DNA of 64,000 nt from Halalkalicoccus sp. CG83 (lineage in GTDB: Archaea > Halobacteriota > Halobacteria > Halobacteriales > Halalkalicoccaceae), in assembly GCF_037081715.1 (NCBI RefSeq), contig NZ_JAZDDH010000002.1:558001-622000 (forward strand), given 5' to 3'. Of this stretch, positions 19,657 through 35,181 are shown piece by piece. Within the stretch, counting starts at the first letter, position 1. The number at the start of each line of letters is the position of its first letter. The notes under the pieces were generated by a model. The model did no database searches, was not told the origin of the DNA, and saw only the letters and a program-made list of their open reading frames with translations. Made by a program: the position numbers and the translations under genes.

Positions 19657-21704
19657 GGTTGGTTTCTGGTCGGGATGGGAAGTCGAGAGTCGGTTCCGAC
19701 GTTCGCGAACGTGAGCAGCAGGAGGACGGCCGCCGCCGCGGCGACCTGGAGGGCGACGTGGACGACCGGCCCGAACATCGCGCCGAAGGCGAGGGCCGCG
19801 TACAGCGTTCGATGGGGGTAACCGAGCGCTCGCGAACCGTCGTAGCCGACGGTGGCGACGATGAGCGCGACCGTCCCGACGAGCACGAGCGGGAACGCGA
19901 GCAGCGTGGCCGGGAACGACCAGTAGATCAGGCTTCCGTTGGTGACGAACGCGAAGGGGATGACGAAGCCCGGCGCGCCGAGCCGAAGCGACTGGAGACA
20001 CGAGCGCGTGAAGCTCGTCTCGGCGATCCGCGAGCCGACGGCGACCGAGATCGCCACCGGCGGGGTGATCGCCGAGAGCATCGCGAAGTAGAAGACGAAC
20101 ATGTGGGTGGTGATCTCGGGGACGCCCATCGCGCTCACGCCCGGCGCGACTAGAATCACGACCAGGATGTACGCCGCGGGCGTCGGCATCCCGAGCCCGA
20201 AGAGGATGCTCGCGACGCTCGCGAGCAGGAGGACGACCAGCAGGGAGCCGCCGCCGAGGCCGACGATCAGCGTGCTCACGCGCTGGGCGAGGCCCGTCTG
20301 GGTCAGCAGTTCGATGATGATCCCCATCGCCGCGAGCACGCCCACCAGCGGGGCCATCTCGACGCCGCCCCGGTGGAGCCCGTCGACGGTCCGTTTGAGC
20401 GTCTCGAACGCCGTCTCGCGGGAGGCGCCCTCGACGAGGAGGTCCCGGGCCGGGACGACCAGCACGATCGAGAAGATGGTGTACATGCCGGCCGAGAGCG
20501 GCGTGTAGCGAAGCACGACCAGCGTGTACAGCAGCACGCCGAGCGGGATCGTGAAGTGGATCCCCCCCAGCAGGACCCGCGGTTCGAACTCGGTCAGACG
20601 CTCGGTCGTCCAGCCGAACTTCAACACCGCGAGGTGGACGCCCACGCCGACGCTGAAGTAGAACAGCGCGGCCGGTATCAGCCCCGCGCGGATGACGTCG
20701 ACGTAGGGCACCCCGATGATGTCGGCCATGAGGAACGCCGCGACGCCCATCACCGGCGGGAGCATCTGTCCGCCGGCGCTCGCGACGGCCTCGATCGCGG
20801 CGGCGAAGTCCGGCCGGACGTCCTGGTCCTTGAGCATCGGGATGGTGAAGCTCCCCGTCGTCGCGGTGTTGGCCGCCGCGCTGCCGGTGATCGAACCCAT
20901 GATCATGCTCGAGATCACGGCGATCTGGACGATGCCGGTCCGGAGGCTCGAGGCCAGTTCGCGACCCGCCTCGAGCACGAACTCCATCAGCCCGTAGGCC
21001 TTCGCGATCCCCGCGAACATGATGAAGATCGCGACCCAGGTCGCGCCGATCCCCATCAGCGTATCGTGGTAGACCCCCGTGAGCCCGATCGCGCCGTCGC
21101 GGGCGATCTGCTCCCACGTCATCCCGGTGTGGCGAAGCACGCCGGGCATGCTCGGACCGACCAGCGAGTGGGCGTAGACGATCGCTCCGACGGCGACCGC
21201 GGCGATGACGTTCCCGAACGCCCGCCGGGTCGCGTCGATCGCGAGCGCGATCAGGGCGACCCCGACCAGGAGGTCCGTGCTCGTGTAGCCGACGACCGGC
21301 GCGTCGTAGAACAGCCGGTCGAAGTTGAGTTCGACGTACGCGGCCGACCCGAGCGCGAGCAGGGCGAGTCCGAGCGCGAGGAACGGGTCGATCCGCCGGA
21401 CGAGCGAGCGAAGCCCGCCGAGCGCGTCGCCGTCGCCACCGCCGTCGTCATCGATGGTTCCGGGGGCGTCGACGGCGACCCCGTCGATCTCCTCGACGGC
21501 CTCGTATCGACCGCGGACGTAGTCCAGATAGAACAGCGCGATCCCCATGCCGACGAAGAGGTTCGAGTACCGCAGCCGGATGAAGAACAACGAGTAGGCG
21601 TAGTAGATCGTGTACAGCGTGAAGATCACGCCCAGCAGATAGACCGACGTCCGAAGGACGCTGATCGGGGTCAGCCGCGTCGATACGTTGGACTGGCCCG
21701 CCAT
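19653..21704 (-). CDS. TRAP transporter fused permease (4TM + 12TM), TAXI type
   Basis: A 683-aa integral membrane protein. The N-terminal 180 residues form the small DctQ-like membrane unit, with an acidic Gly/Asp linker at about residues 82-96. From about residue 220 the large DctM-like unit shows the family segments SSMIMGSITGSAAANTATTG, ASAGGQMLPPVMGVAAFLM and LGMPTPAAYILVV. Such fused permeases pair with TAXI-type binding proteins and use an ion gradient to import small organic acids. It sits between the binding protein (4-base gap) and the ThDP enzyme (4-base overlap) in one operon. Confidence 0.93.
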   Translation of the reverse strand: MAGQSNVSTRLTPISVLRTSVYLLGVIFTLYTIYYAYSLFFIRLRYSNLFVGMGIALFYLDYVRGRYEAVEEIDGVAVDAPGTIDDDGGGDGDALGGLRSLVRRIDPFLALGLALLALGSAAYVELNFDRLFYDAPVVGYTSTDLLVGVALIALAIDATRRAFGNVIAAVAVGAIVYAHSLVGPSMPGVLRHTGMTWEQIARDGAIGLTGVYHDTLMGIGATWVAIFIMFAGIAKAYGLMEFVLEAGRELASSLRTGIVQIAVISSMIMGSITGSAAANTATTGSFTIPMLKDQDVRPDFAAAIEAVASAGGQMLPPVMGVAAFLMADIIGVPYVDVIRAGLIPAALFYFSVGVGVHLAVLKFGWTTERLTEFEPRVLLGGIHFTIPLGVLLYTLVVLRYTPLSAGMYTIFSIVLVVPARDLLVEGASRETAFETLKRTVDGLHRGGVEMAPLVGVLAAMGIIIELLTQTGLAQRVSTLIVGLGGGSLLVVLLLASVASILFGLGMPTPAAYILVVILVAPGVSAMGVPEITTHMFVFYFAMLSAITPPVAISVAVGSRIAETSFTRSCLQSLRLGAPGFVIPFAFVTNGSLIYWSFPATLLAFPLVLVGTVALIVATVGYDGSRALGYPHRTLYAALAFGAMFGPVVHVALQVAAAAAVLLLLTFANVGTDSRLPIPTRNQP

Positions 21705-21708
21705 CCGG

Positions 21709-22764
21709 TCACCCCTCCCCGCGTTCGAGGTCGTCGCTCCAGACGCCGATCTCCTCGTAGAAGTCGGCCGCAGCGGGGTGGAACGGGACGTCGTCGTAGG
21801 GGTTCTCGACCCAGAACCCCGCCTCCTCGAGCCGGCTCAAGAGGGCGTGGTACTCCGACAGCCCCTCGCGGTTCTCGTACAACACGTTGAGGAACTCGTA
21901 GACCGTGTCGTAGTCCAGGTCGTTCCGGGAGACGAAGTTGTACGAGAAGGCGATCGACCACACCTCCTCCGGCGCCTCTGCGTCCTCGATCTCCTCGCCG
22001 GGGAACGACTCCGCGAGCAGGCGGTCGTCGTCCTCCCACGCCCCGACGACGTCGTCCGGGACGTCGAGCAGCCGCAGATCGACGGTCCCCATCATCTCCT
22101 GGAGCCAGCCGGGGACGATCTCGAAGTTGAGATAGGTGCCGACGCCCACGTCGAGACGTCCCTCGCTCATCGCGCTACCCTGCTCGCCGTAGTCCTCGCT
22201 CACCCGTTCGTAGTCGTCGACGGCGTAGTCGAGCGCGTGTTCGAGTGCGCTCGCGGTTCCCGATCCTCGCGGGGTCGGCGACACCGTCGTGTCGGCCCCG
22301 ATGTCGGTGATCGACTCCAGGTCACCGCCCGTACAGAAGAACCACGGCAGGTCGTAGTAGTGGAACACCTGGTTCAGCGTGAAGTCGAGGTCGTCGAACG
22401 GCTCGACGCCCTCCCTGATGTCCGCGGCCGACCAGTTCTGGATGTACACCATCTCGGCCTCACCGCTCTGGAGCGCGCCGATGTTCGCCTCGGTCCCGGG
22501 GCTGGTCTGGGCCTCGACGAAGATCGAGTCCGTGTTCTCGTTGACCGCCGCCGCCAACCCCTGGTTCGCCGCGTAGGCGGCCGTTGTCGACGTCGCGGTC
22601 CGCATCCGGAGCTCCGCGGCGTCCCCGCCGTCTCCGCCGTTCCCGCCCTCGCCGACCGGTTCGGGCTCGTCGTCGCCGATACAGCCCGCCAGCCCGAGCG
22701 CGCCGGCGCCGGCCGCGCCGAGGAACCCCCGACGACCGATCCGTTCGCGGGCGTCGTCGATCAT
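21709..22764 (-). CDS. TAXI-family TRAP solute-binding lipoprotein
   Basis: A 351-aa exported ligand-binding protein. Signal: RRGFLGAAGAGALGLAGC, a twin-arginine motif with lipobox Cys28, followed by a Gly/Asp/Glu linker that spaces the domain from the membrane. The mature protein shows the TAXI pattern: MRTATSTTAAYAANQGLAAAVN, then QTSPGTEANIGALQSGEAEM and SPTPRGSGTASALEHAL. It captures the substrate (carboxylate such as an oxo acid, amino acid or aromatic acid; not decidable) for the permease downstream. A pair of operator-like elements lies upstream at 22811-22857. Confidence 0.92.
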   Translation of the reverse strand: MIDDARERIGRRGFLGAAGAGALGLAGCIGDDEPEPVGEGGNGGDGGDAAELRMRTATSTTAAYAANQGLAAAVNENTDSIFVEAQTSPGTEANIGALQSGEAEMVYIQNWSAADIREGVEPFDDLDFTLNQVFHYYDLPWFFCTGGDLESITDIGADTTVSPTPRGSGTASALEHALDYAVDDYERVSEDYGEQGSAMSEGRLDVGVGTYLNFEIVPGWLQEMMGTVDLRLLDVPDDVVGAWEDDDRLLAESFPGEEIEDAEAPEEVWSIAFSYNFVSRNDLDYDTVYEFLNVLYENREGLSEYHALLSRLEEAGFWVENPYDDVPFHPAAADFYEEIGVWSDDLERGEG

Positions 22765-22810: not shown

Positions 22811-22857
22811 TTACCATCGTTAACATGTGTTTCGAGTTCTCATTCATCGTTAATAAC
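22811..22857 (-). promoter_or_regulatory. Tandem operator-like elements before the TRAP operon
   Basis: Minus strand, in the direction of transcription: GTTATTAACGATG (22857-22845), then GTTAACGATGGTAA (22824-22811). The shared core TTAACGAT recurs at exactly 30 bases. The downstream copy is identical over 13 bases to one at 24215-24227 before the SDR gene. The upstream copy contains TATTAA and may double as the TATA box. The element has weak dyad symmetry, TTAnCnnnGnTAA. Confidence 0.6.
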
Positions 22858-22876
22858 TATGGGGGTGACGTCCCGG

Positions 22877-23986
22877 CTACAACGGCTCCTTCCCGTCGAG
22901 GATGCGAACCGCGCGCTCGGCGAGCGCCGGAACGCGTTCCTCCATCAGCGGGTAGAGGGGGTCGTCAGCGTTGCCCTCGAGGTACCGTCTGAGGAACATC
23001 TCGCCGAGGCCAGCGAGCTTGTAGACCGCGAGCGCCCGGTAGAACCGGTCGTTCTCGAACGTCATCCCCGTCTCGCGCTCGTAGCGGTCGACGAGTTCCC
23101 GCCGGGTAGGATAGCCCTCGCGCTCCATGAACCGTGCGGTCAGCTCGGACATCGCGGGCTCTGGGTCCTTCGGGTCTCGCCAGTAGGAGAGCGTCCAGCC
23201 CAGGTCGACGAGGGGGTCGCCCAGCGCGCTCATCTCCCAGTCGAAGACGGCGACGAGCTCCGGCGGCGACCGGTTCGTCGGACCGTCGTCCCCCCGATCC
23301 GGTGCGGCTCCGGGCGCGAACGAGACGTTGTCGAGCTTGTAGTCGCCGTGGACGAGGGTGTGGGGGTACTCCTCGGGAACGTTCGCCTCGAGCCACTCGC
23401 CGACCCGATCCAGCTCCGGCACCTCGCGTACCTCGTTCGTCACCTCGGACGCCCACTCCAGCTGGCGGCCCCAGCGTTCGACCTGGCGTTCGGTGAAGCC
23501 CGCGGGCCGGCCGAACCCGTCGAGACCGACCGCCTCGTGGTCGACTCCGTGGATCGCCGCGAGGGTGTCGACCAGCTCCTCGCCGATCCGCTCGCGGTGG
23601 GCCGGCTCCGCGAACCGCTCGGGCTCCTCGTCTCTGAGGACGGTCCCCTCGACGCGTTCCATGAGGTAGAAGTCACTGCCCAGCACGTCGTGGTCCTCGC
23701 AGGCCAGCACGGTCGTCGGCATCGGCACCTCGGTGTTCTGGAGGGCGTCCATCACGCGGTACTCGCGCAGCACGTCGTGTGCGGTGTCGGCGGTCTCGCC
23801 CGGCGGCGGCCGGCGGAGCACCAGCTCTCGCTCACCCCACGTCAGAAACAGCGTCTCGTTGGAGTGGCCCTCGGCGTGGCGCTGGATCGAGAACTCGTCG
23901 GTCGGCCCCAGTTCCTCCTCAAGGTACGACCGCAGCGCCTCCTCGTCCACCAGTCGGCGGAAGTACTCCTCGCTGACGTCCGTCAT
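22877..23986 (-). CDS. APH-family phosphotransferase (ACAD10/11 N-domain-like)
   Basis: A 369-aa kinase-fold protein. The catalytic Brenner motif is LVHGDYKLDNVSF near residue 200 and the metal motif is FDWEMSALGDPLVDLG near residue 240. Members near acyl-CoA dehydrogenase genes resemble the kinase domain of ACAD10/11, which phosphorylates 4-hydroxyacyl-CoA so the hydroxyl can be removed before beta-oxidation. That reading fits the surrounding CoA-metabolism genes but is an inference; an antibiotic kinase is unlikely. An alternative ATG lies at 23998. It has its own promoter with two TCGTACGA palindromes. Confidence 0.8.
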   Translation of the reverse strand: MTDVSEEYFRRLVDEEALRSYLEEELGPTDEFSIQRHAEGHSNETLFLTWGERELVLRRPPPGETADTAHDVLREYRVMDALQNTEVPMPTTVLACEDHDVLGSDFYLMERVEGTVLRDEEPERFAEPAHRERIGEELVDTLAAIHGVDHEAVGLDGFGRPAGFTERQVERWGRQLEWASEVTNEVREVPELDRVGEWLEANVPEEYPHTLVHGDYKLDNVSFAPGAAPDRGDDGPTNRSPPELVAVFDWEMSALGDPLVDLGWTLSYWRDPKDPEPAMSELTARFMEREGYPTRRELVDRYERETGMTFENDRFYRALAVYKLAGLGEMFLRRYLEGNADDPLYPLMEERVPALAERAVRILDGKEPL

Positions 23987-24005
23987 GCTCCTACGCACCG
24001 CACCA

Positions 24006-24044
24006 TCGTACGAATAGCTGTGGGTATTATATACCTTCGTACGA
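24006..24044 (-). promoter_or_regulatory. Promoter of the phosphotransferase gene with paired TCGTACGA palindromes
   Basis: The 8-base palindrome TCGTACGA occurs at 24006-24013 and 24037-24044, 31 bases apart, on either side of a TATA-like stretch (minus strand TATATAATA, 24026-24034). The downstream copy would lie at the expected transcription start. This arrangement suggests a repressor binding both sites. The motif differs from the TTAACGATGGTAA element of neighbouring promoters. Confidence 0.55.
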
Positions 24045-24184
24045 GATACAGTCGATTTGATTTACAATGTAGCCAAATTTCGGGTGGCTGCGGGTAACGG
24101 AACCGATCCGAGAGGACGGTCGGACGGCTTCCGGTGGTCGCAGGTCCCTGTCGAGTGCCCTCGACGGTCGTCCCTGAACGTTTA

Positions 24185-24227
24185 TTAACGACGGGCGGGA
24201 AGGTGACGACTGTATTAACGATGGTAA
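24185..24227 (+). promoter_or_regulatory. Tandem operator-like elements before the SDR-lactonase operon
   Basis: TTAACGACGGG at 24185-24195 and TTAACGATGGTAA at 24215-24227, both preceded by TAT and spaced exactly 30 bases, in the same order and orientation as the pair upstream of the TRAP operon. The second copy ends 25 bases before the ATG at 24253. TATTAA at 24213-24218 may serve as the TATA box, so a bound protein would block it. Confidence 0.6.
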
Positions 24228-24252
24228 GAAGAGATCCGACACGGGGACGACG

Positions 24253-25020
24253 ATGACGGACCGATTCGGCATCGACGGCCGGGTGACGATCGTAACCGGC
24301 GGGTCGAGCGGGATTGGCCGGGCGATCGCCGAACGGTTCGCCGACGAGGGCGCGAAGGTGGTCGTCTGCTCGCGCGAGCAGGAGAACGTCGATCCGGTCG
24401 CCGAGGGGATCCGGGAGGCGGGCGGCGAGGCGCTCGCCGTCGAGTGCGACATCACGGACCGGGAGGCGGTCGAGGCGCTGGTCGAGGCCACGGTCGAGGA
24501 GTTCGGCTCGGTCGACACGCTCGTCAACAACGCGGGCGCGAGCTTCATGGCCGGGTTCGACGACATCTCGGAGAACGGCTGGGAGACGATCGTCGACATC
24601 AACCTCACCGGCACCTACCACTGTACCCAGGCCGCCGGCGAACACCTGAAGGACGGCGGCGGGACGGTGATCAACCTCGCGTCGGTGGCGGGCCAGCGGG
24701 GGTCGCCGTACATGAGCCACTACGGGGCGGCGAAGGCGGGCGTGATCAACCTCACGACGACGCTTTCGGCCGAGTGGGCCGGCGACGACGTCAGAGTGAA
24801 CTGCATCGCGCCGGGGTTCGTCGCGACGCCCGGCGTCGAGTCCCAGATGGGCGTCTCCGCGGAGAACGTCGATCGGACCGAGGTCGAACGCCGGATCGGC
24901 CGCTCCGAGGAGATCGCCGACGTCGCGCAGTTCCTCGCCAGTCCCGCCTCCTCGTACGTCGTCGGCGAGACGATCACCGCCGGCGGCGTCCCGCGGGTCG
25001 AGGAGAGCCCCGAGGTCTGA
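24253..25020 (+). CDS. SDR-family dehydrogenase/3-oxoacyl reductase-like
   Basis: A 255-aa classical short-chain dehydrogenase. Seen: the NAD(P) loop TGGSSGIGRA, NNAGASFM, the catalytic Ser region INLASVAGQRG and the YGAAKAG active-site motif (Tyr, Lys). The C-terminal part IAPGFVATPGV is typical. It oxidises or reduces an alcohol/ketone; in this setting a 3-hydroxyacyl-CoA or aromatic side-chain alcohol is plausible. The metallohydrolase gene starts 2 bases after its stop, so the two act in one operon. Confidence 0.88.
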   Translation: MTDRFGIDGRVTIVTGGSSGIGRAIAERFADEGAKVVVCSREQENVDPVAEGIREAGGEALAVECDITDREAVEALVEATVEEFGSVDTLVNNAGASFMAGFDDISENGWETIVDINLTGTYHCTQAAGEHLKDGGGTVINLASVAGQRGSPYMSHYGAAKAGVINLTTTLSAEWAGDDVRVNCIAPGFVATPGVESQMGVSAENVDRTEVERRIGRSEEIADVAQFLASPASSYVVGETITAGGVPRVEESPEV

Positions 25021-25022
25021 CG

Positions 25023-25820
25023 ATGGTCGACCTCGAACTGACCCCCGTCGAACGAGGACACATCCGGACCGACGTCAACCACATTATCGAGGGGTACCGG
25101 ATGGGTTCCGCGAGCGAGCCGAACCCCGAGACGCCGATGGACGAGGGTCCCGTCTACAACCTCGTGATCGAGCACCCCGAGGCGACGATCCTCTGGGACA
25201 CCGGCTCGCACCCCGAGGCCGGCGAGGGCCACTGGCCCGATCCGCTGTACGACGCCTTCGAACACTACGATGCCGACGAGCACCCGCTCGATGTTGCCCT
25301 CGAGCGTGTGGGCTACTCGATCGAGGAGATCGACGCGGTGATCCAGTCGCATCTGCATCTCGATCACGCGGGCGGCCTCCACGAGTTCGCCGGGACGGAC
25401 GTGCCGATCTACGTCCACGAGGAGGAGCTCAAGTTCGCCTACTACAGCGCGAAGAGCGACGCCGGCAGCACCGCGTACGTCGCGGCCGACTTCGATCACG
25501 ACCTGAACTGGCGAGTGGTCCACCGCGATCGCGAGACGCCCTTCAAGGGGATCGAACTCCGCCGCCTGCCCGGGCACACACCCGGTCTGCTGGGGACGGA
25601 TCTCGACGCCGACGACGGCCGGGTGCTCGTCATCGGCGATCAGGCCTACATGCGCGCGAACTACGACGAGGAACGGCCCCTCGGCGCGGGGCTGCTCTGG
25701 AGCAGGCGCGACTGGTACGAGAGCCTCCGGACGGCCAAGGAGATCGAGCGCCGCGAGGGCGCGACGGTGATCTGCGGGCACGACCCCGAGGACCTCGCTC
25801 GCCTCGAGGAGCTCAGCTGA
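25023..25820 (+). CDS. AHL-lactonase-family metallo-beta-lactamase-fold hydrolase
   Basis: A 265-aa dinuclear zinc hydrolase. The metal motif HLHLDHAGG (HxHxDH) lies near residue 112, with further ligands in RRLPGHTPG, GDQAYM and GHDPED. This layout is that of AttM/AiiA-type N-acyl homoserine lactonases, but the family also includes lactonases and thioesterases with other substrates. It is cotranscribed with an SDR (2-base gap) in a CoA-catabolism island, so opening a lactone or unloading a thioester intermediate is as likely as signal quenching. Its stop overlaps the convergent SDR gene by 8 bases. Confidence 0.82.
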   Translation: MVDLELTPVERGHIRTDVNHIIEGYRMGSASEPNPETPMDEGPVYNLVIEHPEATILWDTGSHPEAGEGHWPDPLYDAFEHYDADEHPLDVALERVGYSIEEIDAVIQSHLHLDHAGGLHEFAGTDVPIYVHEEELKFAYYSAKSDAGSTAYVAADFDHDLNWRVVHRDRETPFKGIELRRLPGHTPGLLGTDLDADDGRVLVIGDQAYMRANYDEERPLGAGLLWSRRDWYESLRTAKEIERREGATVICGHDPEDLARLEELS

Positions 25821-26583
25821 TCGAGTAGCCGCCGTCGAGCACCAATCCATGGCCGGTGACGTAGCTCGCCTCGTCGCTCGCGAGGTAGGCGATCGCGTCG
25901 GCGACCTCCTCCGGCCTCCCGAGGCGTTTCAGCGGGTACTGGGCCTCCATCCGCTTTCTCGCCTTCTCGGGATCGTCCTGCTGTGCGAAGAACGCCTCGC
26001 CCAGCGCGGTCTCGATGAAGCCGGGACAGACCGCGTTCGCGCGCACGCCGTAGGGGCCCGCCTCCGCGGCGACGGTGCGCGTGAAGTTGAGCACGGCGCC
26101 CTTCGTGAGGGTGTAGACCGCCTGTTTGGGCAGGCCGATCATCCCCCCGAGCGAGGCTACATTGACGATCGCGCCCGATCCCTGCTCCTTCATGATCGGT
26201 AGCACCGCCCGACAGCCGTTCCAGACGCCCCTGCAGTTGACGTCGATCACCCGGTCGAACACGTCGGGATCCGTCTCCTCGATCGACGCCGCCTCGTGGC
26301 CGATCCCAGCGTTGTTCACGAGGACGTCGAGGCCCCGGTCGGCCACGACCTTCTCGACCACTTCTTCGAACCTCCCGGCGTCGGAGACGTCGAGCCTGCG
26401 GAACTCGGCGTCCCCGCCCGTCTCCTCGATCAGCTCGACGGTCCCCTCGCCGCCCTCGCGGTCGACGTCGGTCACGACCACGTGAGCCCCTTCCCTGGCG
26501 AGCCGTTCGGCGGTCGCCCGGCCGATCCCGGCCGCCGCCCCGGTCACCACCGCGGTCCGGTCCTCGAATCGCGTTCGAGCCAT
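25813..26583 (-). CDS. SDR-family dehydrogenase
   Basis: A 256-aa classical SDR with TGAAAGIGRA, NNAGIGHEAAS, the Ser region VNVASLGGMIG, and a YTLTKGA active-site motif (Tyr and Lys). The family includes 3-hydroxyacyl-CoA, glucose and 2,3-butanediol dehydrogenases. The ATG at 26583 gives the standard length; a reading to 26700 adds a leader that runs through the promoter region. It diverges from the HAD-ECH gene across a region holding operator-like elements. Confidence 0.88.
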   Translation of the reverse strand: MARTRFEDRTAVVTGAAAGIGRATAERLAREGAHVVVTDVDREGGEGTVELIEETGGDAEFRRLDVSDAGRFEEVVEKVVADRGLDVLVNNAGIGHEAASIEETDPDVFDRVIDVNCRGVWNGCRAVLPIMKEQGSGAIVNVASLGGMIGLPKQAVYTLTKGAVLNFTRTVAAEAGPYGVRANAVCPGFIETALGEAFFAQQDDPEKARKRMEAQYPLKRLGRPEEVADAIAYLASDEASYVTGHGLVLDGGYSIS

Positions 26584-26617
26584 GGTTACCAACGACCACA
26601 ATACTCGAACAGATAAA

Positions 26618-26659
26618 TACCGTCGTTGACGGTAATCGGTCTGTAGATAACGATGATAA
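26618..26659. promoter_or_regulatory. Operator-like elements in a divergent promoter (SDR / HAD-ECH)
   Basis: TACCGTCGTTGACGGTAA at 26618-26635 is an imperfect palindrome whose minus strand (TCAACGACGGTA) matches 10 of 13 bases of TTAACGATGGTAA. ATAACGATGATAA at 26647-26659 on the plus strand differs by two. The first overlaps the presumed TATA box of the SDR gene (TATTTATC on the minus strand, 26612-26619). The second lies just before the TATA-like GAGTTAAGT (26672-26680) that is 27 bases from the HAD-ECH start. Confidence 0.5.
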
Positions 26660-26702
26660 AGACCGTCGGTGGAGTTAAGTCGGTCGTGGTGGATCCGCAA
26701 GC

Positions 26703-28697
26703 ATGAACGTCGAGGAGATCGACCGCGTCGCGGTGCTCGGTGCGGGGAACATGGGCCACGGGATCACGGAGGTCGTCGCCATCGCCGGCTACGACGTGAC
26801 GATGCGCGACGTCGAGCGGGAGCTCGTCGAGGACGGCTACGCCTCGATCGAGTGGAGCCTCGAGAAGCTCGCCGAGAAGGGACTCGTCGACGAGTCCTCC
26901 GAGACGGTGCTCGAACGGATCGACACCGCGGTCGACCTCGAGACCGCCGTGAACGACGCCGACCTCGTGATCGAGGCGGCGCCCGAGCGGATGGAGCTCA
27001 AGCGCGAGATCTTCACGGATCTCGACGAGTTCACACCCAGCGAGTCGATCCTCGCGTCGAACACCTCCTCGCTGTCGATCACCGAGATCGCGAGCGCGAC
27101 CGACCGCCCCGAGCAGGTCGTCGGGACCCACTTCTTCAACCCGCCGGTGAAGATGGACCTCGTTGAGGTGATCTACGGGGCGGAGACGACCGACGAGACC
27201 GCCGAGACCGCCCACGGGTTCGTCGAGTCGATCGGCAAGACGCCGATCTACGTCCGCAAGGACGTCAACGGCTTCGTCGTCAACAGCGTGCTCGGCCCGT
27301 TCGGCGACGAGGCCGGCTGGATGGTCTCGGAGGGGCTCTACGACGTCCGGGAGGTCGACGCCGCGATGGTCCACCAGCGCGGGTATCCGATGGGCCCGTT
27401 CGAGCTCGCGGACCTCACCGGCATCGACATCGGCTATCACGTCCGCAAGGAAGCCGGCAAGGAGGTCCCGCCGATCGTCGAGGAGAAGGTCGAGGCCGAG
27501 GAGCTCGGCCGGAAGACGGGCAGGGGCTATTACGAGTACGAGGACGGAGAGGCGTCGGAGACGTCTCAGGCAGACGGCGAAGCCGTCGACGGCGACGGCC
27601 CCGACTACGAGCCCGGACAGGGCGAGGACGTCGACACGCTGCGCATCGAGGCCCGAATGATCAACGAGGCCGCGAAACTGATCGGGAACGACGTCGCGAC
27701 CGCCGAGGCGATCGACACCGGCCTCCGGCTGGGGGCGGGCTTCCCCGAGGGGCCCTGCCGGCGTGCCGACGAGCTCGGGCTCGATACGGTGCTCGAGAAG
27801 CTCGAGTCGCTGTTCGAGGAGTACGGCGCCGAGCGCTACGAGCCCGCCGACCACCTCCGGAAGCTCGTCGAATCGGGCCGAACGGGCGAGGACGCGGGCG
27901 CCGGCTTCTACGACTACGGCTCGGGCGCAGAGCGCGACTACACGACGCTGACCCACACGCTGGAGGACGGACTGCTCGAGATCGAGCTCGACCGCCCCGA
28001 ACGGTTGAACGCGCTCGATCAGGACCTGATGGACGAGATCGTCAACCTGCTCGAGAACGCCGATCTCGACGAAGTCCGGGCGGTCACCTTCGAGGGGGCG
28101 GGCGACCGGGCGTTCTGTGCCGGCGCGGACGTCTCGGGCTTCGCGGGGATCGAGCCCCACGAGAAGGAGGTGACGCAGGTGTTCGAGACGGTCGCGCAGT
28201 TCCCCCGGCCCACGCTCGCGAAGGTCGACGGCTACTGTCTGGGCGGCGGGCTCGAACTGGCGCTCGCCTGCGACCTGCGGGTCGCCACCGAGGGCTCACG
28301 GTTCGGGTTCCCCGAGATCGATCTCGGACTGATTCCGGGCGGTGGGGGTACCCAGCGGACGATCAGGATGCTGAGCGAGGCCCGCGCGAAGGAGCTGGTC
28401 TTCCGAGGGGAGCACGTCGACGCCGAACGCGCCGAGAACTGGGGGCTGATCAACCGCGCCGTCTCCGAGGACGAGTTCGACGACGTCGTCGAGGAGTTCG
28501 TTGACGACCTCGTCTCGGGTCCGCCGATCGCGCTCCGGAAGGCCAAGCGGGTGATGAACGAGGGGCGCGACCAGGACCTCTCCGCGGGCCTGGAGATGGA
28601 GGCACAGGCGTTCGGTCTCCTCCTGGGGACCGAGGACGCTTCGGAGGGGGCCGCCGCGTTCTCCGAGAACCGCGAGCCCGAGTTCCGGGGGGAGTGA
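26703..28697 (+). CDS. Bifunctional 3-hydroxyacyl-CoA dehydrogenase / enoyl-CoA hydratase
   Basis: A 664-aa fusion with the dehydrogenase first and the hydratase last, the reverse order of bacterial FadB. Dehydrogenase: NAD loop GAGNMGHGI, catalytic His region GTHFFNPPVKMDLVEV, and two C-terminal 3HCDH domains around residues 190-275 and 315-410, separated by an acidic linker near residues 283-307. Crotonase domain from about residue 415: oxyanion and Glu regions AFCAGADVSGF, GGGLELALACDLR and FGFPEIDLGLIPGGGG, with both catalytic Glu positions present. It performs hydration and oxidation of enoyl-CoA. The thioesterase gene begins one base after its stop. Confidence 0.94.
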   Translation: MNVEEIDRVAVLGAGNMGHGITEVVAIAGYDVTMRDVERELVEDGYASIEWSLEKLAEKGLVDESSETVLERIDTAVDLETAVNDADLVIEAAPERMELKREIFTDLDEFTPSESILASNTSSLSITEIASATDRPEQVVGTHFFNPPVKMDLVEVIYGAETTDETAETAHGFVESIGKTPIYVRKDVNGFVVNSVLGPFGDEAGWMVSEGLYDVREVDAAMVHQRGYPMGPFELADLTGIDIGYHVRKEAGKEVPPIVEEKVEAEELGRKTGRGYYEYEDGEASETSQADGEAVDGDGPDYEPGQGEDVDTLRIEARMINEAAKLIGNDVATAEAIDTGLRLGAGFPEGPCRRADELGLDTVLEKLESLFEEYGAERYEPADHLRKLVESGRTGEDAGAGFYDYGSGAERDYTTLTHTLEDGLLEIELDRPERLNALDQDLMDEIVNLLENADLDEVRAVTFEGAGDRAFCAGADVSGFAGIEPHEKEVTQVFETVAQFPRPTLAKVDGYCLGGGLELALACDLRVATEGSRFGFPEIDLGLIPGGGGTQRTIRMLSEARAKELVFRGEHVDAERAENWGLINRAVSEDEFDDVVEEFVDDLVSGPPIALRKAKRVMNEGRDQDLSAGLEMEAQAFGLLLGTEDASEGAAAFSENREPEFRGE

Positions 28698-28698
28698 C

Positions 28699-29127
28699 GT
28701 GTCGAACGACCTCGCCGGCGAGGAGCTCCGGGCGTTCATCGACGACCACGGCTACCTCTCGTGGCTCGGACTGCGGCTGGACCGCCTCGAACGGGGGCGC
28801 GTCAGAATGAGCGTCCCCGGCGACGAGAAGTTCCGCAATCCCGGGCCGGGCGGCTCGATCCACGGCGGCATCGTCGCGACGCTGATCGACACCGCGAGCG
28901 GCTTCGCGCTCCGGACGACCTTCGAGGACCCCGGGACGGCGCGGCTCGCGACGACCGACCTCGACGTCTCCTACCTGCGACCGGCGACCGGCGACCTCAC
29001 GGTCGAGGCCGAGGTGCTGCGTGCCGGCGGGACGACGGGGGTCACCGACGTCGCGGTCGAGAGCGCGAACGAGGCCGAGCCGGTCGCGGTCGGACGAACG
29101 ACCTACCGGCTGTTCCGGGACTCATGA
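28699..29127 (+). CDS. PaaI-family hotdog thioesterase
   Basis: A 142-aa hotdog-fold protein with the PaaI signature: GGSIHGGIVATLIDTASGFAL, where HGG and the Asp are active-site residues, and ATTDLDVSYLRPA in the following strand. It would hydrolyse acyl- or hydroxyphenylacetyl-CoA, relieving trapped CoA. The GTG start lies one base after the HAD-ECH stop, and the gene overlaps the next by 4 bases; it is the middle gene of a three-gene operon. Confidence 0.88.
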   Translation: MSNDLAGEELRAFIDDHGYLSWLGLRLDRLERGRVRMSVPGDEKFRNPGPGGSIHGGIVATLIDTASGFALRTTFEDPGTARLATTDLDVSYLRPATGDLTVEAEVLRAGGTTGVTDVAVESANEAEPVAVGRTTYRLFRDS

Positions 29128-29564
29128 CCCGCTTTGCCGAGGTCGAGGTCGGCGATTCCTTCCGGACGAGGGGACGGACGCTCACCGAGGCCGACGTCAC
29201 GAACTTCGCCGGGGTCAGCGGCGACTTCAACCACCTCCACACCGACGCGGAGCTGATGAAGGACTCGAAGTTCGGCGAGCGCATCGTCCACGGCGCGCTC
29301 GTGTTCAGCGCGATGACGGGACTCCTCTGGCAGTCTCGGAGCGAACGGGAGCGGGACGCCGTCGTCGCCTTCTACGGCGTCGACCGACTGCGCTTCGTCC
29401 AGCCGGTCTTCGTGGACGACACCCTCCACGTCGAGGGCGAGGTCGTCGAAACCGAGCCCCGGGACCACCCGGTGGCTAACGGCCTGGTCCGATACGAGGT
29501 GCAGGTCGAGAACCAGCACGGGGACGTCGTGCTCGCTTGCGAGCTCCTGTCGCTGGTCGAGTAG
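29124..29564 (+). CDS. MaoC-family (R)-specific enoyl-CoA hydratase
   Basis: A 146-aa hotdog protein. The hydratase signature is GDFNHLHTDAELMKDSKFGERIVHGAL, with Asp and His as catalytic residues. It adds water to a trans-2-enoyl-CoA in the R direction, or reverses this. The start ATGA overlaps the thioesterase stop. It is the last gene of the HAD-ECH operon and converges on the Lrp-like regulator; 29565-29675 between them holds nothing recognisable. Confidence 0.9.
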   Translation: MTRFAEVEVGDSFRTRGRTLTEADVTNFAGVSGDFNHLHTDAELMKDSKFGERIVHGALVFSAMTGLLWQSRSERERDAVVAFYGVDRLRFVQPVFVDDTLHVEGEVVETEPRDHPVANGLVRYEVQVENQHGDVVLACELLSLVE

Positions 29565-29675
29565 CCGTCCGGTCACGAGACGTCGAACGGGGCGGGATAA
29601 CCCGATCGGGTCCTGCGAACGAACCGAAGGAGGACGACTACGTCCGTGACGCCTCCATCGGCGTCATCCGACTCC

Positions 29676-30194
29676 TCACTCCCCGTGTTTCGAGAGGTCG
29701 TTCAGGAGCTCGGGATCGGTTCGGAACTTCAGGACGTTGTGGATCACCGAGTTGCGGATGTTGTCGATCACCGCCCCGTGTTCCTTGTAGAACTCGTGGA
29801 TCCAGCGAGACTCGGACTCGCGGTCGGGGAACATCATCACCGACTTCCACTGGTACTCGCCGTCCGAGAGGAAGTAGAACAGCGTGTGCTGGTCCTCGCG
29901 GATGTACTCCATGGCGTCGCGCCAGCCCTCCTCGAAGTGCTCGGGGTTGAAGCGGAACTCGAAGAGGCCGAAGATGAAGTACTCCTCGTTGGGGACGATC
30001 GTCTCGCGGAAGACGCCCTCCTCGCGCATCTTGCGGATCGACTCGCTGACGGTGACGTGCGAGACGTCGATCCCGTACTCCTCGTCGAGGATCTCGGTGA
30101 GCTTGCGCGAGGATATCTGTGGGTTCTCCGACATCTCTCGCAGGATGACGATGTCGCGGTCCTTGAACGTCCAGTCGGGGGGGCTCTCTGCCAT
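29676..30194 (-). CDS. Lrp/AsnC-like winged-helix transcriptional regulator
   Basis: A 172-aa protein with an N-terminal winged helix (DRDIVILREMSENPQISSR, then VSHVTVSESIRKMREEG) like Lrp/AsnC proteins. The C-terminal 100 residues are rich in aromatic and charged residues (NEEYFIFGLFEFRFNPEHF) and do not look like a standard RAM domain, so it may sense a different ligand such as an acyl-CoA. It lies 40 bases downstream of an acyl-CoA dehydrogenase in one operon. Inference: it is a candidate regulator for the operator-like elements in the 22-34 kb island. Confidence 0.78.
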   Translation of the reverse strand: MAESPPDWTFKDRDIVILREMSENPQISSRKLTEILDEEYGIDVSHVTVSESIRKMREEGVFRETIVPNEEYFIFGLFEFRFNPEHFEEGWRDAMEYIREDQHTLFYFLSDGEYQWKSVMMFPDRESESRWIHEFYKEHGAVIDNIRNSVIHNVLKFRTDPELLNDLSKHGE

Positions 30195-30234
30195 GGCGTG
30201 CGTTTTTCTCGTCTCGCGTACTGTTCCTTTCGGC

Positions 30235-31374
30235 TCAGAGCAGCTGGTCGGCGATGATGTTCTTCTGGATCTCGCTCGTGCCCTCGTAGATCTTGGTGAT
30301 CCGGACGTCGCGGTAGTAGCGCTCGGCGGGGTGGTCGGTGACGTAGCCCGCCCCCCCGTGGACCTGGATCGACTCGTCGGCGACGTCGATGGCGTGCTCG
30401 CTCGCGAACAGCTTCGCCATGCTCGCGAACTTCATCGCGGCACGCCGGTCGTCCTCCTCGACCTTCCCCGCCGCCCGGTAGGTGAGCGACCGGGCCGCCT
30501 CGACCGAAGTCGCCATCTCCGCGAGCTTGTGCTGGATCGCCTGGAACTCCCCGATCTTCCGGTCGAACTGCTCGCGCTCGTCCGCGTACTCGAGCGCGGC
30601 GTCGAGCGCGCCCTGTGCCGCGCCGACCGCCTGGGCGGCGACGCTCACCCGACCCGACCCGAAGAAGTTCATCAGCTGGTAGAACCCCTCGTCCACCTCG
30701 CCGATGACGTTCTCCTCGGGGACCCGGACCTCGTCCAGCAGTAGCTCCCCCAGATCCGAGGCGCGGATCCCGAGCTTGTTGTCGATCTTCTCGGCCGAGA
30801 ACCCCTCCGCGTCGGTCGGGACGAGGAAGGCGGTGATGCCGCGCTTTCCGGCTCCCGGGTCCGTCTTCGCCATCACGACGGCGACGTCGGCGACGGTGCC
30901 GTTGGTGATCCACATCTTGTTGCCGTCGATCACGAACCCGTCGTCGTCGCGCTCGGCGCGCGTCTCCATCCCCGCGACGTTGCTCCCGTGGGCGGGCTCG
31001 CTGATCGCGCTCGCACACGCCGACTCGCCGCTCGCGATGCGGGTGAGCCACTCCTCCTTCATCCACTCGTCGCCGAACTCGAGGATCATGTTCGAGCCGA
31101 ACCCTCGCGAGCCGATCGCGCTGCCGATGCCGGGGTCGGCCCGCCAGAGCTCCTCGGTGACGACCGTGCTCGAGAGCGTGTCCATTCCCGGTCCGCCGTA
31201 CTCCTCCGGGATGTTGGGCGCGATCAGGTCGTAGCGGGCCGCCCGTTCGATCAGTTCCTCGGGATACGTTCCCTCCTCGTCGTGTTCCCGCGCGACCGGT
31301 TCGATCTCGTTCTCCCCGAAGTCGCGCACCGCTCGCCGGATCGCCCGGTGTTCGTCTGACAGCGTGAATGCCAT
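30235..31374 (-). CDS. Acyl-CoA dehydrogenase
   Basis: A 379-aa FAD enzyme that makes trans-2-enoyl-CoA and passes electrons to ETF. Seen: FAD/substrate motifs CASAISEPAHGSNVAGM and WITNGTVADV, then the RVSVAAQAVGAAQGAL helix, REQFDRKIGEFQAIQHKLAEM, and the C-terminal IYEGTSEIQKNIIA with the catalytic Glu. A TATA-like stretch on the minus strand (GTTATTTTACA, about 31396-31406) is 26 bases before the ATG, so the mRNA is probably leaderless. The Lrp-like regulator is cotranscribed downstream. Confidence 0.94.
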   Translation of the reverse strand: MAFTLSDEHRAIRRAVRDFGENEIEPVAREHDEEGTYPEELIERAARYDLIAPNIPEEYGGPGMDTLSSTVVTEELWRADPGIGSAIGSRGFGSNMILEFGDEWMKEEWLTRIASGESACASAISEPAHGSNVAGMETRAERDDDGFVIDGNKMWITNGTVADVAVVMAKTDPGAGKRGITAFLVPTDAEGFSAEKIDNKLGIRASDLGELLLDEVRVPEENVIGEVDEGFYQLMNFFGSGRVSVAAQAVGAAQGALDAALEYADEREQFDRKIGEFQAIQHKLAEMATSVEAARSLTYRAAGKVEEDDRRAAMKFASMAKLFASEHAIDVADESIQVHGGAGYVTDHPAERYYRDVRITKIYEGTSEIQKNIIADQLL

Positions 31375-31423
31375 GTGGCTGAATCAGGTTCCGATGTAAA
31401 ATAACTTTGGCAAAGATACGAAC

Positions 31424-31433
31424 TTCGTTAACC
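31424..31433 (-). promoter_or_regulatory. Half-site of the TTAACGAT element upstream of the acyl-CoA dehydrogenase
   Basis: Minus strand GGTTAACGAA, sharing TTAACGA with the elements at 22.8 and 24.2 kb. It lies about 20 bases upstream of the TATA-like stretch. The GGTAA half is absent, so this is weaker than the others. Confidence 0.3.
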
Positions 31434-31471
31434 ACTTCGTCGCCGCTCCGGCCGGCGGCGCCCGGAGTCGC

Positions 31472-32278
31472 CTACCGCCCCTCGAACTCGGGCTCGCGTC
31501 CCTCGAGGAAGGCTCGGACGCCCTCCTCGTGGTCTGCGGTGTCGAAGACGATTCCCTGGGCGGTCGCCTCGTCGGTCATCGCTCGCTCGGCGGACTTCCC
31601 CAGCCCCTCGCCGACCAGCCGCTTGGCGTGTCTGAGCGCGACCGTCGGCCCCGAGGCGATCCGCTCGATCAGCGCGTCCGCGCGCTCGTCGAACTCGCTC
31701 TCGGGGTAGACGTGGTTGAACAGCCCCAGCTCCCCGGCCCGCTCGGCGTCGAGGATCTCGCCGGTGAACACCAGCTCCTTTGCGACGTTCTCGCCGACGA
31801 TCCTGGGAAGCAGGTAGGAGGTCCCGACGTCGACGCTCAGGCCGACGTTCCGGAAGACGAACCCCACGCTCGCGTTCTCGCTCGCGAGCTGCAGGTCGCA
31901 GGCGATCGCGAGGTTCGCGCCCGCGCCCACGGCGGGGCCGTCGACCTTCGCCACCGTGGGCAGCGGGAAGGCGACGAGCCGGGCCATCGTCTCGTTGGTC
32001 GAGCGCTCGAGTTCGCGGACCCGCTCGTCCGCCGGCACGTCGTTCTCGATCCACTCGCGCATCGCTCCGATGTCCCCGCCCGCCGAGAAGGCGTCGTCCG
32101 CCCCCTCGATGACGACGCAGCGCGCCTCCGATCCGGGCGCGTCGACCGTCTCGAGCGCCTCCCGGATCCCGGCGCTGACCTCCCGTGAAAGGGCGTTGCG
32201 TCGGTCCGGCCGGTCGAGCGTGATCGTCGCGACGCCGTCGGCGACGTCGAGGGACACCGCCTCGTCCGGGTCGCTCAT
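31472..32278 (-). CDS. Enoyl-CoA hydratase/isomerase, PaaG-like
   Basis: A 268-aa crotonase-fold enzyme. The oxyanion region is DAFSAGGDIGAM and GAGANLAIACDLQLAS. At the second active-site position the usual Glu of hydratases is replaced and the loop reads GLSVDVGTSYLLPRIVG, like the Asp-bearing GLVPDSGGTW loop of PaaG, the ring-1,2-epoxyphenylacetyl-CoA/enoyl-CoA isomerase. So isomerase activity is more likely than hydration. The ATG at 32278 overlaps the ligase stop by 4 bases; a longer reading is a shadow of the ligase gene. Next to a ligase, it likely acts on the CoA ester that enzyme forms. Confidence 0.88.
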   Translation of the reverse strand: MSDPDEAVSLDVADGVATITLDRPDRRNALSREVSAGIREALETVDAPGSEARCVVIEGADDAFSAGGDIGAMREWIENDVPADERVRELERSTNETMARLVAFPLPTVAKVDGPAVGAGANLAIACDLQLASENASVGFVFRNVGLSVDVGTSYLLPRIVGENVAKELVFTGEILDAERAGELGLFNHVYPESEFDERADALIERIASGPTVALRHAKRLVGEGLGKSAERAMTDEATAQGIVFDTADHEEGVRAFLEGREPEFEGR

Positions 32279-33846
32279 TCGGCCTCGACCTCCTCGTCGA
32301 CGAGCTTGAACTTCTGCACCTTGCCGGTGGTGGTGCGGGGGAGCTCCTCGACGAACTCGACCTCGCGGGGGTGTTTGTACTCCGCGAGGTTCGACAGACA
32401 GTACTCCTTGATGTCGCCCTCGCTCACGTCGGCGTCGGGAGTCGAAACGACGTAGGCCTTGACGGTCTCGCCGCGGCGCTCGTCGGGAATCCCGACGACG
32501 GCGGCGTCCGCGACCGCCTCGTGTTCGAACAGCAGCTCCTCGATCTCGCGCGGGTAGACGTTGTAGCCCGCCGTGTTGATCATGTGTTTCTCGCGGTCGA
32601 CGACGTAGTAGAAGCCGTCCTCGTCGTGGTAGCCCACGTCGCCCGTGTGGAACCACCGGTTCCCTCCCGATTGGGTGAACGCCTCCTCGTTCGCCTCAGG
32701 GAGGTTGTAGTAGCCCTTCATCACGTTCGGCCCCGCGATCACCAGCTCTCCCGTTATCTCGTCGAGATCTGCGTCCTCCTCGTCGACCGGGCCCTCCTCG
32801 ACCGGCGGGACGTCCTCGAAGTCGGGGGTGACGACGCGACACTCGACGCCCGGGAGCGTCCGGCCGATGCTCCCGATCCGCCGACCCTCCTCCGGGGTGT
32901 TGAAGTGGGTCACGGGCGAGGTCTCGGTCAGCCCGTAGCCCTCGTAGAGCTTCGCGTCGTAGAGCTCCTCGAAGCGTCTGAGCACCTCGACGGGGATGCC
33001 CGAGCCGCCAACGCCACAGAGCCGCAGCGACGAGAGGTCGAACCCCTCGGCGTCCGGCTGGTTGATCACGTCGTTGTACATCGCCGGAACGCCGTGCATC
33101 AGCGTGATCCGCTCGTCCTCGATCACCGAGACCGCCTGCTGGGCGTCCCACGAGGGAAGGGGGTAGAACGCGCCTCCGTCGAACAGCGTCGCGTTCATCG
33201 TGACGGTCATCCCGTAGATGTGAAAGAGCGGCAGTACCCCTAGCTGTTTGTCGTCCTCGCGGATGCCGTCGGGGATCAGATCGGCCGAGACCTCCGCGTT
33301 CGAGGCGAGATTGCGGTGGGTGAGCTGGACCCCCTTGGGCTGGCCCGTCGTCCCCGAGGTGTACGGCTGGACCGCGTCGTCGTCGGCCCCGCGCTCGACC
33401 ACGTCGGCCCGGCCGTCGACGAGGAACTCCTCGAAGGGCGTCGCACCGTTCGCGGTTCCGCCGACGGAGACGACCTCCTCGACGTCGGTCTCCTCGTCCA
33501 CCTCGTCGACGAACGGGACGAGGTCGGAAAGCGCGACGACGGCCTTCGCGCCGCTGTCGGCGAGCAGGTGGCCGATCTCGCGGCTCTTGTACTGGGGGTT
33601 CATCGGTACGACGACCCCGCCCGCCCGCAGGGTCCCGTGGAACGCGACGAGGAACTGCGGGAGGTTCGGGAGGTAGACCGCGACGCGGTCGTCGGCGCCG
33701 ATCCCGCGGTCGTCGAGCGCGGCGGCGAACTGCTCCGTCCGTGCCCAGAACTCCCGGTAGCTGACCTCCCGGCCCTCGTAGCTGATGGCCGTGTGGTCCG
33801 GCCGTTCGTCGGCCACGCGTTCGACGTTCGTGACGAGGTTCGTCAT
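32275..33846 (-). CDS. AMP-forming acyl-CoA ligase
   Basis: A 523-aa enzyme of the ANL superfamily that activates a carboxylic acid to its CoA ester with ATP. Seen: the P-loop-like YTSGTTGQPKGVQLTHRN near residue 165, GYGLTETSPV near residue 300, the hinge HTGDVGYHDEDGFYYVVDR, and the catalytic Lys in TTGKVQKFKL at the C-terminus. Length and motifs fit medium/long-chain fatty acid or aryl-CoA ligases. It is transcribed with the PaaG-like gene and divergently from a glutaryl-type acyl-CoA dehydrogenase. Confidence 0.92.
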   Translation of the reverse strand: MTNLVTNVERVADERPDHTAISYEGREVSYREFWARTEQFAAALDDRGIGADDRVAVYLPNLPQFLVAFHGTLRAGGVVVPMNPQYKSREIGHLLADSGAKAVVALSDLVPFVDEVDEETDVEEVVSVGGTANGATPFEEFLVDGRADVVERGADDDAVQPYTSGTTGQPKGVQLTHRNLASNAEVSADLIPDGIREDDKQLGVLPLFHIYGMTVTMNATLFDGGAFYPLPSWDAQQAVSVIEDERITLMHGVPAMYNDVINQPDAEGFDLSSLRLCGVGGSGIPVEVLRRFEELYDAKLYEGYGLTETSPVTHFNTPEEGRRIGSIGRTLPGVECRVVTPDFEDVPPVEEGPVDEEDADLDEITGELVIAGPNVMKGYYNLPEANEEAFTQSGGNRWFHTGDVGYHDEDGFYYVVDREKHMINTAGYNVYPREIEELLFEHEAVADAAVVGIPDERRGETVKAYVVSTPDADVSEGDIKEYCLSNLAEYKHPREVEFVEELPRTTTGKVQKFKLVDEEVEAE

Positions 33847-33927
33847 GATCTACCGTTCCACAACGATCCCGTGCGTTAAAAAGATTCACCGATGGAGAAC
33901 TTTCGATCACCGAGAGAGGAGATACAG

Positions 33928-33940
33928 TTAACAACGGTAA
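33928..33940 (+). promoter_or_regulatory. Operator-like element in the ligase / acyl-CoA dehydrogenase divergent promoter
   Basis: TTAACAACGGTAA differs in 2 of 13 bases from TTAACGATGGTAA and keeps the dyad TTAnCnnnGnTAA. It lies about 50 bases upstream of the TATA box of the dehydrogenase gene and in the divergent region shared with the ligase gene (ligase TATA-like CTTTTTAAC on the minus strand, about 33874-33882). Confidence 0.5.
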
Positions 33941-34017: not shown

Positions 34018-35181
34018 GTGTTAGACTTCGTTGAACTCGAACAGGAGCTGACCGAGGAGGAACGGACGATCCAGGAGCGCGCCCGGGAGTTCGTCGACGA
34101 GGAGGTCCGACCGATCATCGCCGAGCACTACCTCGAGGGGACGTTCCCCGAGGAGCTGATCCCCAGGCTGGGTGAGCTGGGCTTCTACGCGCCGAACCTC
34201 GAGGGTTACGGGCTCTCGAACGTGAGCGAGACCGCCTACGGACTGTTGATGCAGGAGCTCGAGGCCGGCGACTCCGGAGTGCGGTCGATGGCGAGCGTCC
34301 AGGGCGCGCTCGTGATGTACCCCATCCACGCCTACGGCAGCGAGGACCAGAAGGAGCGCTGGCTCCCCGACATGGGCGAGGGCGAGGCGATCGGCGGGTT
34401 CGCGCTGACCGAGCCCGACCACGGCTCGGACGCCGGGAGCATGGAGACGCGTGCGGAGAAGGACGGCGACGAGTACGTCCTCGACGGCGCGAAGCGCTGG
34501 TGTACCAACTCGCCGATCGCGGACGTGGTGATCGTCTGGGCGCGCGACGGCTCCGCCGAGGACGAGCCGGTGCGGGGCTTCCTCGTCGAGACCGACCGCG
34601 ACGGCCTCGAGATCGACACGATCGAGGGGAAGCTCTCGCTGCGGGCCTCGAGCTCCGGCGAGTTCACGATGAACGGCGTCCGGATCCCCGAGGAGAACGT
34701 TCTGCCCGGCGTCGAGGGCATGAAGGGACCGCTGTCGTGTCTCACACAGGCGCGTTACGGCATCGCCTGGGGCGCCGTCGGCGCGGCCCGGGACTGCTTC
34801 GAGGAGGCCCGCGAGTACGCGCTCGACCGAGAGCAGTTCGGCGGGCCGATCGCGCGCTTCCAGCTCCAACAGGAGAAGCTCGCGGAGATGGCGACGGAGA
34901 TCACGACGAGCCAGCTGCTCGCCCACCGGCTCGCGGAGCTCAAGGAGCGGGGCGATCTGCGACCCCAGCACGTCTCGATGGCCAAGCGCAACAACGTCGA
35001 GATGGCGCGAGACCAGTCGCGCGTCGCCCGGGAGATGCTCGGGGGCAACGGCATCACCGGCGAGTACGCCTCCATGCGACACATGGCGAACATGGAGACG
35101 GTCTACACGTACGAGGGGACCCACGACATCCACACGCTGATCCTCGGCGCGGACCTCACCGGCATCCAGGCCTTCGAGTGA
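34018..35181 (+). CDS. Acyl-CoA dehydrogenase, glutaryl-CoA dehydrogenase-like
   Basis: A 387-aa flavoenzyme. Compared with the other acyl-CoA dehydrogenase here it has the glutaryl type C-terminus YTYEGTHDIHTLILGADLTG, with catalytic Glu in YEGT, and the GGFALTEPDHGSDAGSMETRA and RWCTNSPIADV segments of that subfamily. Glutaryl-CoA dehydrogenases oxidise and decarboxylate glutaryl-CoA to crotonyl-CoA, an end step of lysine, tryptophan and benzoate breakdown; closely similar enzymes act on other acyl-CoAs. GTG at 34018 is chosen as start from the TATA spacing and family length. It is divergent from the ligase. Confidence 0.9.
   Translation: MLDFVELEQELTEEERTIQERAREFVDEEVRPIIAEHYLEGTFPEELIPRLGELGFYAPNLEGYGLSNVSETAYGLLMQELEAGDSGVRSMASVQGALVMYPIHAYGSEDQKERWLPDMGEGEAIGGFALTEPDHGSDAGSMETRAEKDGDEYVLDGAKRWCTNSPIADVVIVWARDGSAEDEPVRGFLVETDRDGLEIDTIEGKLSLRASSSGEFTMNGVRIPEENVLPGVEGMKGPLSCLTQARYGIAWGAVGAARDCFEEAREYALDREQFGGPIARFQLQQEKLAEMATEITTSQLLAHRLAELKERGDLRPQHVSMAKRNNVEMARDQSRVAREMLGGNGITGEYASMRHMANMETVYTYEGTHDIHTLILGADLTGIQAFE

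Follow-up and report, generated by a model that had tools for sequence, protein, structure and literature searches.

A 64,000-nt stretch of the 3.64-Mb genome of the haloarchaeon Halalkalicoccus sp. CG83 (hereafter the window, whose positions serve as coordinates throughout, with strands given as + or -) harbors a catabolic island, in which genes for a TAXI-type TRAP transporter and an APH-fold kinase are found with those of a short-chain dehydrogenase (SDR1) and a lactonase-like hydrolase, a second short-chain dehydrogenase (SDR2), a 3-hydroxyacyl-CoA dehydrogenase/enoyl-CoA hydratase fusion (HBD), a thioesterase (TE), a MaoC hydratase, two acyl-CoA dehydrogenases (ACD1 and ACD2), an enoyl-CoA hydratase (ECH) and an acyl-CoA ligase. 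Two elements of this island are considered here: a 13-bp word repeated in several of its promoters, an imperfect dyad with the consensus YTAAC(A/G)(A/G)TGGTAA, and REG, a candidate regulator encoded within the island (Table 1).

Two identical copies of the word (TTAACGATGGTAA), one before the TRAP genes and one before SDR1, had been reported in an initial annotation, together with two copies bearing two changes, and all four are found where they had been placed; a fifth, 10/13 match on the minus strand is present as well, one base away from the interval 26618-26630 assigned to it. The window holds seven matches with up to three mismatches compared with 1.67 expected, a number reached in 1 of 100 shuffles, and the exact word occurs in this genome at the two window sites only.

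At the scale of the whole genome, looser forms are close to chance: 22 matches with up to two mismatches compared with 16 for a reversed-pattern control, and 31 compared with 26 for a still looser form. Outside the island, the matches point convincingly to no other target, with the possible exception of TGAACGATGGTAA at C2:254456, a family-level search for the exact motif returned matches in this genome only, and the loose dyad TTAnCnnnGnTAA proposed as a marker proved too degenerate to inform a genome-wide scan. Such counts speak for a chance likeness among the AT-rich promoter words of one genome, an explanation that is nevertheless contradicted by the contrast between genomes with and without REG and by the conserved sites in orthologous promoters of many genera, and that is hardly credible in view of both. 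It is because of this conservation in orthologous promoters, and not of its overall frequency, that the word stands above chance.

Table 1. Putative operator boxes and genes of the catabolic island (SBP, solute-binding protein)
Feature	Position	Strand	Remarks
TRAP promoter, box 2, TTAACGATGGTAA	22811..22823	-	Exact; begins 59 bp before SBP start codon
TRAP promoter, box 1 fused to TATA element, GTTATTAACGATGAATG	22841..22857	-	30 bp upstream of box 2
SDR1 promoter, box 1 fused to TATA element, TTATTAACGACGGGCG	24182..24197	+	30 bp upstream of box 2
SDR1 promoter, box 2, TTAACGATGGTAA	24215..24227	+	Exact
HBD/SDR2 divergent promoter, upstream box, TCAACGACGGTAT	26617..26629	-	10/13 match; 30 bp from next box
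HBD-proximal box, ATAACGATGATAA	26647..26659	+	2 mismatches; about 57 bp before HBD start
Probable BRE/TATA of HBD, CGGTGGAGTTAAG	26667..26679	+	Downstream of the boxes; conserved in the alignment across genera; putative core promoter
Ligase (-)/ACD2 (+) intergenic box, TTAACAACGGTAA	33928..33940	+	2 mismatches; -94 of ligase
TRAP fused permease	19653..21704	-	Pfam DctM, NCBIfam TRAP_fused
TAXI-type TRAP SBP	21709..22764	-	Pfam NMT1_3, NCBIfam TRAP_TAXI
APH-fold kinase, similar to ACAD11 kinase domain	22877..23983	-	Pfam APH; PDB 8v3v/8v3u, E 4e-47 and 5e-46
SDR1 short-chain dehydrogenase	24253..25020	+	
Metallo-beta-lactamase-fold lactonase-like hydrolase	25017..25820	+	
SDR2 short-chain dehydrogenase	25813..26584	-	Divergent from HBD; start codon approximate
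HBD fusion	26703..28697	+	
TE (28699-29127) and MaoC-type hydratase	28699..29564	+	Operon-internal, without motif
REG, candidate regulator	29676..30194	-	172 aa; predicted Lrp/AsnC fold (winged helix, then RAM-like domain)
Acyl-CoA ligase, ECH, ACD1	30235..33846	-	Followed by REG on the same strand
ACD2	34018..35181	+	Start codon approximate

Conservation at orthologous promoters and co-occurrence with REG

Many of the same catabolic genes recur in forty regions (up to 20 kb each) around REG orthologues of numerous haloarchaeal genera, where the motif precedes the SDR1, HBD, ligase, ACD1 and APH genes and, in some cases, REG itself. In orthologous promoters of SDR, 3-hydroxyacyl-CoA dehydrogenase, ligase and acyl-CoA dehydrogenase genes, the sites are conserved in many of these genera. 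A position weight matrix (PWM), seeded with the motif of that annotation and trained on some of the promoters later scored, places sites in 86 of the 220 upstream regions scored (47 loci) compared with 8.4 in shuffles. These sites mark promoter-proximal genes (SBP 7/7, SDR1 14/17, HBD 19/27, ACD1 17/28), and are rare or absent upstream of operon-internal ones (TE 0/12, TRAP 0/7, MaoC 1/16, ECH 2/15). Their positions are recurrent, at -56 to -58 for HBD (15 of the 19 sites found), -38 or -47 for SDR1, and -39 to -59 for the TRAP SBP, and at two loci (L088 and L094) an exact TTAACGATGGTAA lies at -93 of the ligase gene, compared with -94 in the window. The TRAP promoter site is kept in all six congeners, in the forms TTAACAATGGTAA, TTAACAATGATAA, CTAACAATGATAG and TTAACAGCGGTAA. 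Taken together, the short word very probably is a genuine control site of fatty-acid-type degradation genes, with wide conservation.

In three loci of genera g78 and g6 (L164-L166), an exact TTAACAATGGTAA precedes the gene of a LivK-like (ABC-type) solute-binding protein, with REG about 10 kb away in two of the three genomes, which suggests that the regulon exchanges transporter types between lineages.

REG is encoded by about half of the haloarchaeal genomes in the sample: when a genome is counted as REG+ if it encodes REG at 60% identity or more, 125 of 242 genomes are REG+ and 117 are REG-. The exact form YTAACRRTGGTAA occurs at 76 sites in these genomes, 69 of them in 52 of the 125 REG+ genomes and seven in six of the 117 REG- genomes (Fisher 5e-12, a value that overstates the independence of phylogenetically related genomes), compared with 25 and 24 sites, respectively, for a reversed control pattern, and 37 of the 69 REG+ sites are located within 15 kb of REG. 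At the orthologous SDR1 promoters, a strong site is found in 22/34 REG+ genomes and in 0/26 REG- genomes (11/16 vs 0/15 by genus). Word counting free of any prior motif ranks TTATTAAC and AACAATGG/CAATGGTA among the top words, none of which is present in the 26 REG- SDR1 promoters, and GTTAATAA, the reverse complement of TTATTAAC, is likewise found in none of the 26. Within a single genus (g18), the site is found in both REG+ members examined and in none of the three REG- members, a joint presence or absence that argues for a functional link.

Could the element be the operator of another transcription factor, co-inherited with the cluster? The binding of REG is something we infer, and some REG+ genomes lack the SDR1 site, which is unrecognisable in genera g20, g25 and g8 (L234, L246, L251-L256, L259), where either the regulon has shrunk or the operator motif has diverged. 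However, such a factor appears unlikely, as the presence of the motif tracks that of REG even within one genus, and as, apart from REG, the proteins common to at least five of the 40 REG loci include no recognised DNA-binding family (unlabelled families having mostly been assessed on the first part of a single sequence rather than by a profile scan), and the open reading frames scanned at 15-43 kb of the window contain no DNA-binding domain outside REG. Conservation of the promoters, concentration in REG+ genomes and the standing of REG as the sole recognised shared DNA-binding family thus support the earlier proposal of one regulator acting at several island promoters, with this Lrp-like protein as the candidate. 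In two congeners (G001 and G005; L046, L047, L085, L086), REG occurs twice: one copy lies in the ACD1 cluster, and the other is divergent from the gene of the TRAP solute-binding protein.

Paired boxes and their spacing

In many promoters, the unit is not the single 13-mer considered in the initial annotation but a pair of boxes 30-31 bp apart, which had been overlooked. Each perfect site of the window is preceded, at a distance of exactly 30 bp, by a second copy of TTAACGAY (TTAAC at 22853(-) and 24185(+)). In a set of 76 promoters (near-identical ones removed, a few divergent ones counted from both sides), a second box is present within 70 bp in 33, and it lies at 30 or 31 bp in 21 of them, compared with 0.85 in shuffled flanks. 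The composite pattern TTATTAAC-N(20-29)-MACRRTGG gives 47 matches vs 7 for its control, in 42 REG+ and 3 REG- genomes, and although ten spacings were allowed, 45 of the 47 matches have the 30/31-bp spacing (total lengths of 43/44). An exact tandem TTAACGAY pair, also searched class-wide, was discarded: it returned this genome and three chance-like matches compared with three in controls, because most lineages use TTAACA and not TTAACG, a difference that the degenerate composite accommodates. A spacing of 30-31 bp is three helical turns and places both boxes on one face of the helix; the 30-bp phasing partly overlaps a conserved TATA position, and its regularity may in part reflect promoter geometry.

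The position of the pair relative to the core promoter differs from one gene to another. The SDR1 and TRAP promoters combine a TATA-fused box with a box near the presumed transcription start, the HBD promoter carries both boxes upstream of its conserved CGGTGGAnTTAAG core (with the 30-bp arrangement of the HBD/SDR2 promoter also seen in other genera), and the ACD1 promoter has one box at about -57 and a TATA-embedded box at -26. In two congeners, both TRAP boxes read TTAACA, compared with TTAACG in the window, and the 30-bp spacing is retained.

The initial annotation had cautioned that the copies could in part be TATA boxes, which is apt for the upstream copies of the TRAP and SDR1 promoters (TTATTAAC), as both contain TTATTAA, but unlikely for the perfect 13-mers, because the downstream SDR box in congeners reads CTACCAATGGTAA, without a TATA. 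A wider version of this idea, in which the element belongs to the core promoter (as a TATA/BRE variant recognised by one given TBP/TFB pair) rather than being an operator, could also account for the fixed distance to the second box. It is very improbable given that the 13-mer lies at about -57, upstream of a separate conserved core promoter, in HBD, and near the presumed start in SDR1 and TRAP, that it occurs in both orientations, and that the SDR1 orthologue promoters of REG- genomes have neither word.

REG and the proposed regulation

The predicted structure of REG has the two-domain order of Lrp/AsnC proteins and matches members of this family over the whole chain. Its N-terminal helices (12-23, 29-38 and 46-58) form the (winged) helix-turn-helix expected of Lrp/AsnC proteins, and its C-terminal part has the beta-alpha-beta-beta-alpha-beta arrangement of a RAM domain (strands 74-82, 104-109, 115-122 and 143-150; helices 84-99 and 125-139), onto which stand-alone RAM domains superpose at 2.0-2.7 A (for 2e1a, Z 10.7 and rmsd 2.0 over 74 residues). 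The top 39 Foldseek matches of the model in the PDB are all Lrp/AsnC proteins or siroheme-decarboxylase relatives (E 3.5e-8 to 1e-4), with a whole-chain rmsd of 11-12 A, which means that the predicted domain orientation of REG differs from that of known members. Sequence profiles give fainter signals: of 32 REG homologues, 31 match HTH_24 and 10 match HTH_AsnC-type, in both cases weakly, the alignment profile matches 8q90 and PH1519 weakly (E 0.08-0.6), and a phmmer search of the PDB with the single sequence returned nothing useful. The recognition helix is almost invariant among REG and 31 aligned homologues (63-94% identity). Based on this model, REG is probably an Lrp-type regulator.

Taken together, the element most likely represents the operator of REG, an Lrp/AsnC-type protein that would control a haloarchaeal regulon of acyl-CoA and probably 4-hydroxyacid catabolism, from uptake and CoA ligation to beta-oxidation, SDR and lactonase. 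Several points weigh against this reading, besides the relatedness of the genomes compared, the seeding of the PWM, the REG+ genera devoid of a recognisable SDR1 site and the part that promoter geometry may take in the spacing. The AlphaFold model of REG is of moderate confidence only (pLDDT 77.5, pTM 0.59), no AsnC ligand-binding profile of Pfam or NCBIfam matches REG, and in four congeners the TATA-to-box distance of the TRAP promoter is 35 bp and not 30, with box 1 consisting of the TATA element only.

How could REG act on such promoters? In length, each 13-bp box roughly suits a single Lrp dimer, and paired boxes on one helix face could be held together by a dimer of dimers or an octamer of REG, with the DNA wrapped around it. 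In the TRAP and SDR1 promoters, where the second box lies about 30 bp downstream of the TATA-fused one, near the expected start, REG would block RNA polymerase, as LrpA of Pyrococcus furiosus does, and in the HBD promoter, where both boxes are upstream of the core promoter, it may either repress or activate. REG would probably be a repressor, released upon entry of the substrate by an acyl-CoA-type ligand, for which a CoA thioester or a free acid of the pathway is a likely candidate. A bolder and rather doubtful extension is that REG founds a haloarchaeal Lrp-like branch sensing acyl-CoA or 4-hydroxyacyl-CoA instead of an amino acid, in which one operator phased over three helical turns would have two uses, as a roadblock overlapping the TATA element at TRAP and SDR1 and as a site of upstream activation at HBD, coordinating the whole catabolic regulon.

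Regarding the other genes of the island, the APH-fold kinase matches the ACAD11 kinase domain, and its gene runs divergent from an acyl-CoA dehydrogenase gene in congeners (L048, L049, L084-L086). This looks like an archaeal version, in split form, of the ACAD10/11 4-hydroxyacid pathway (PMC12440821, PMC11342911), in which the lactonase-like hydrolase possibly opens gamma-lactones. A gene for a TPP-dependent benzoylformate-decarboxylase-like enzyme (17971-19648, -) lies 3' of the TRAP permease gene on the same strand.

Comparison with known archaeal regulators

For few haloarchaeal regulators are the operator and the regulon both defined; here, one protein is linked to one operator and to a set of promoters across many genera, with an operator box fused to the TATA element that makes for a clear mechanistic prediction. 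Lrp operators and regulators are already known as a kind; a REG-type regulator, its motif (including the motif words) and its regulon, or any regulator of haloarchaeal acyl-CoA catabolism, were not found described among the open-access papers covered by the searches.

Archaeal Lrp sites are spaced by two or three helical turns, and LrpA blocks RNA polymerase from a site that borders the TATA box (PMC2995911). If REG binds the boxes, the anatomy described here would fit both this published spacing and the TATA-bordering block (PMC2995911, PMC10201364). LrpA of P. furiosus, which has an Lrp-type fold, represses its own gene from an operator on the downstream side of the TATA box that is compatible with TBP/TFB binding and blocks RNA polymerase (PMC2995911); it acts mainly on this gene, whereas a multi-operon acyl-CoA catabolic regulon is predicted for REG, and the two proteins are distant (for 1i1g, VIA-align Z 9.3, rmsd 11.6 over 134 residues, 20% identity). 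BarR, a beta-alanine-responsive dual regulator of Lrp type in Sulfolobales, offers a parallel to the putative REG sites: it binds several sites per promoter (semi-palindromic, of about 15 bp), some of them three helical turns apart, with the DNA wrapped around an octamer (PMC10201364), but its motif is of the TTGTACTTTTTACAA type, its ligand is beta-alanine, and the targets described for it are a neighbouring aminotransferase gene and the gene that encodes BarR. Among haloarchaeal Lrp/AsnC proteins, the halophilic Lrp 8q90 shares its fold with the REG model but only about 20% identity with REG, and LrpA1 of Halobacterium has aspartate listed as its effector (PMC2995911) and no acyl-CoA cluster. 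Finally, FadR of Sulfolobus acidocaldarius (FadRSa) is also an archaeal regulator of fatty acid metabolism (PMC6449355), but belongs to the TetR family, with a fold unrelated to that of REG.

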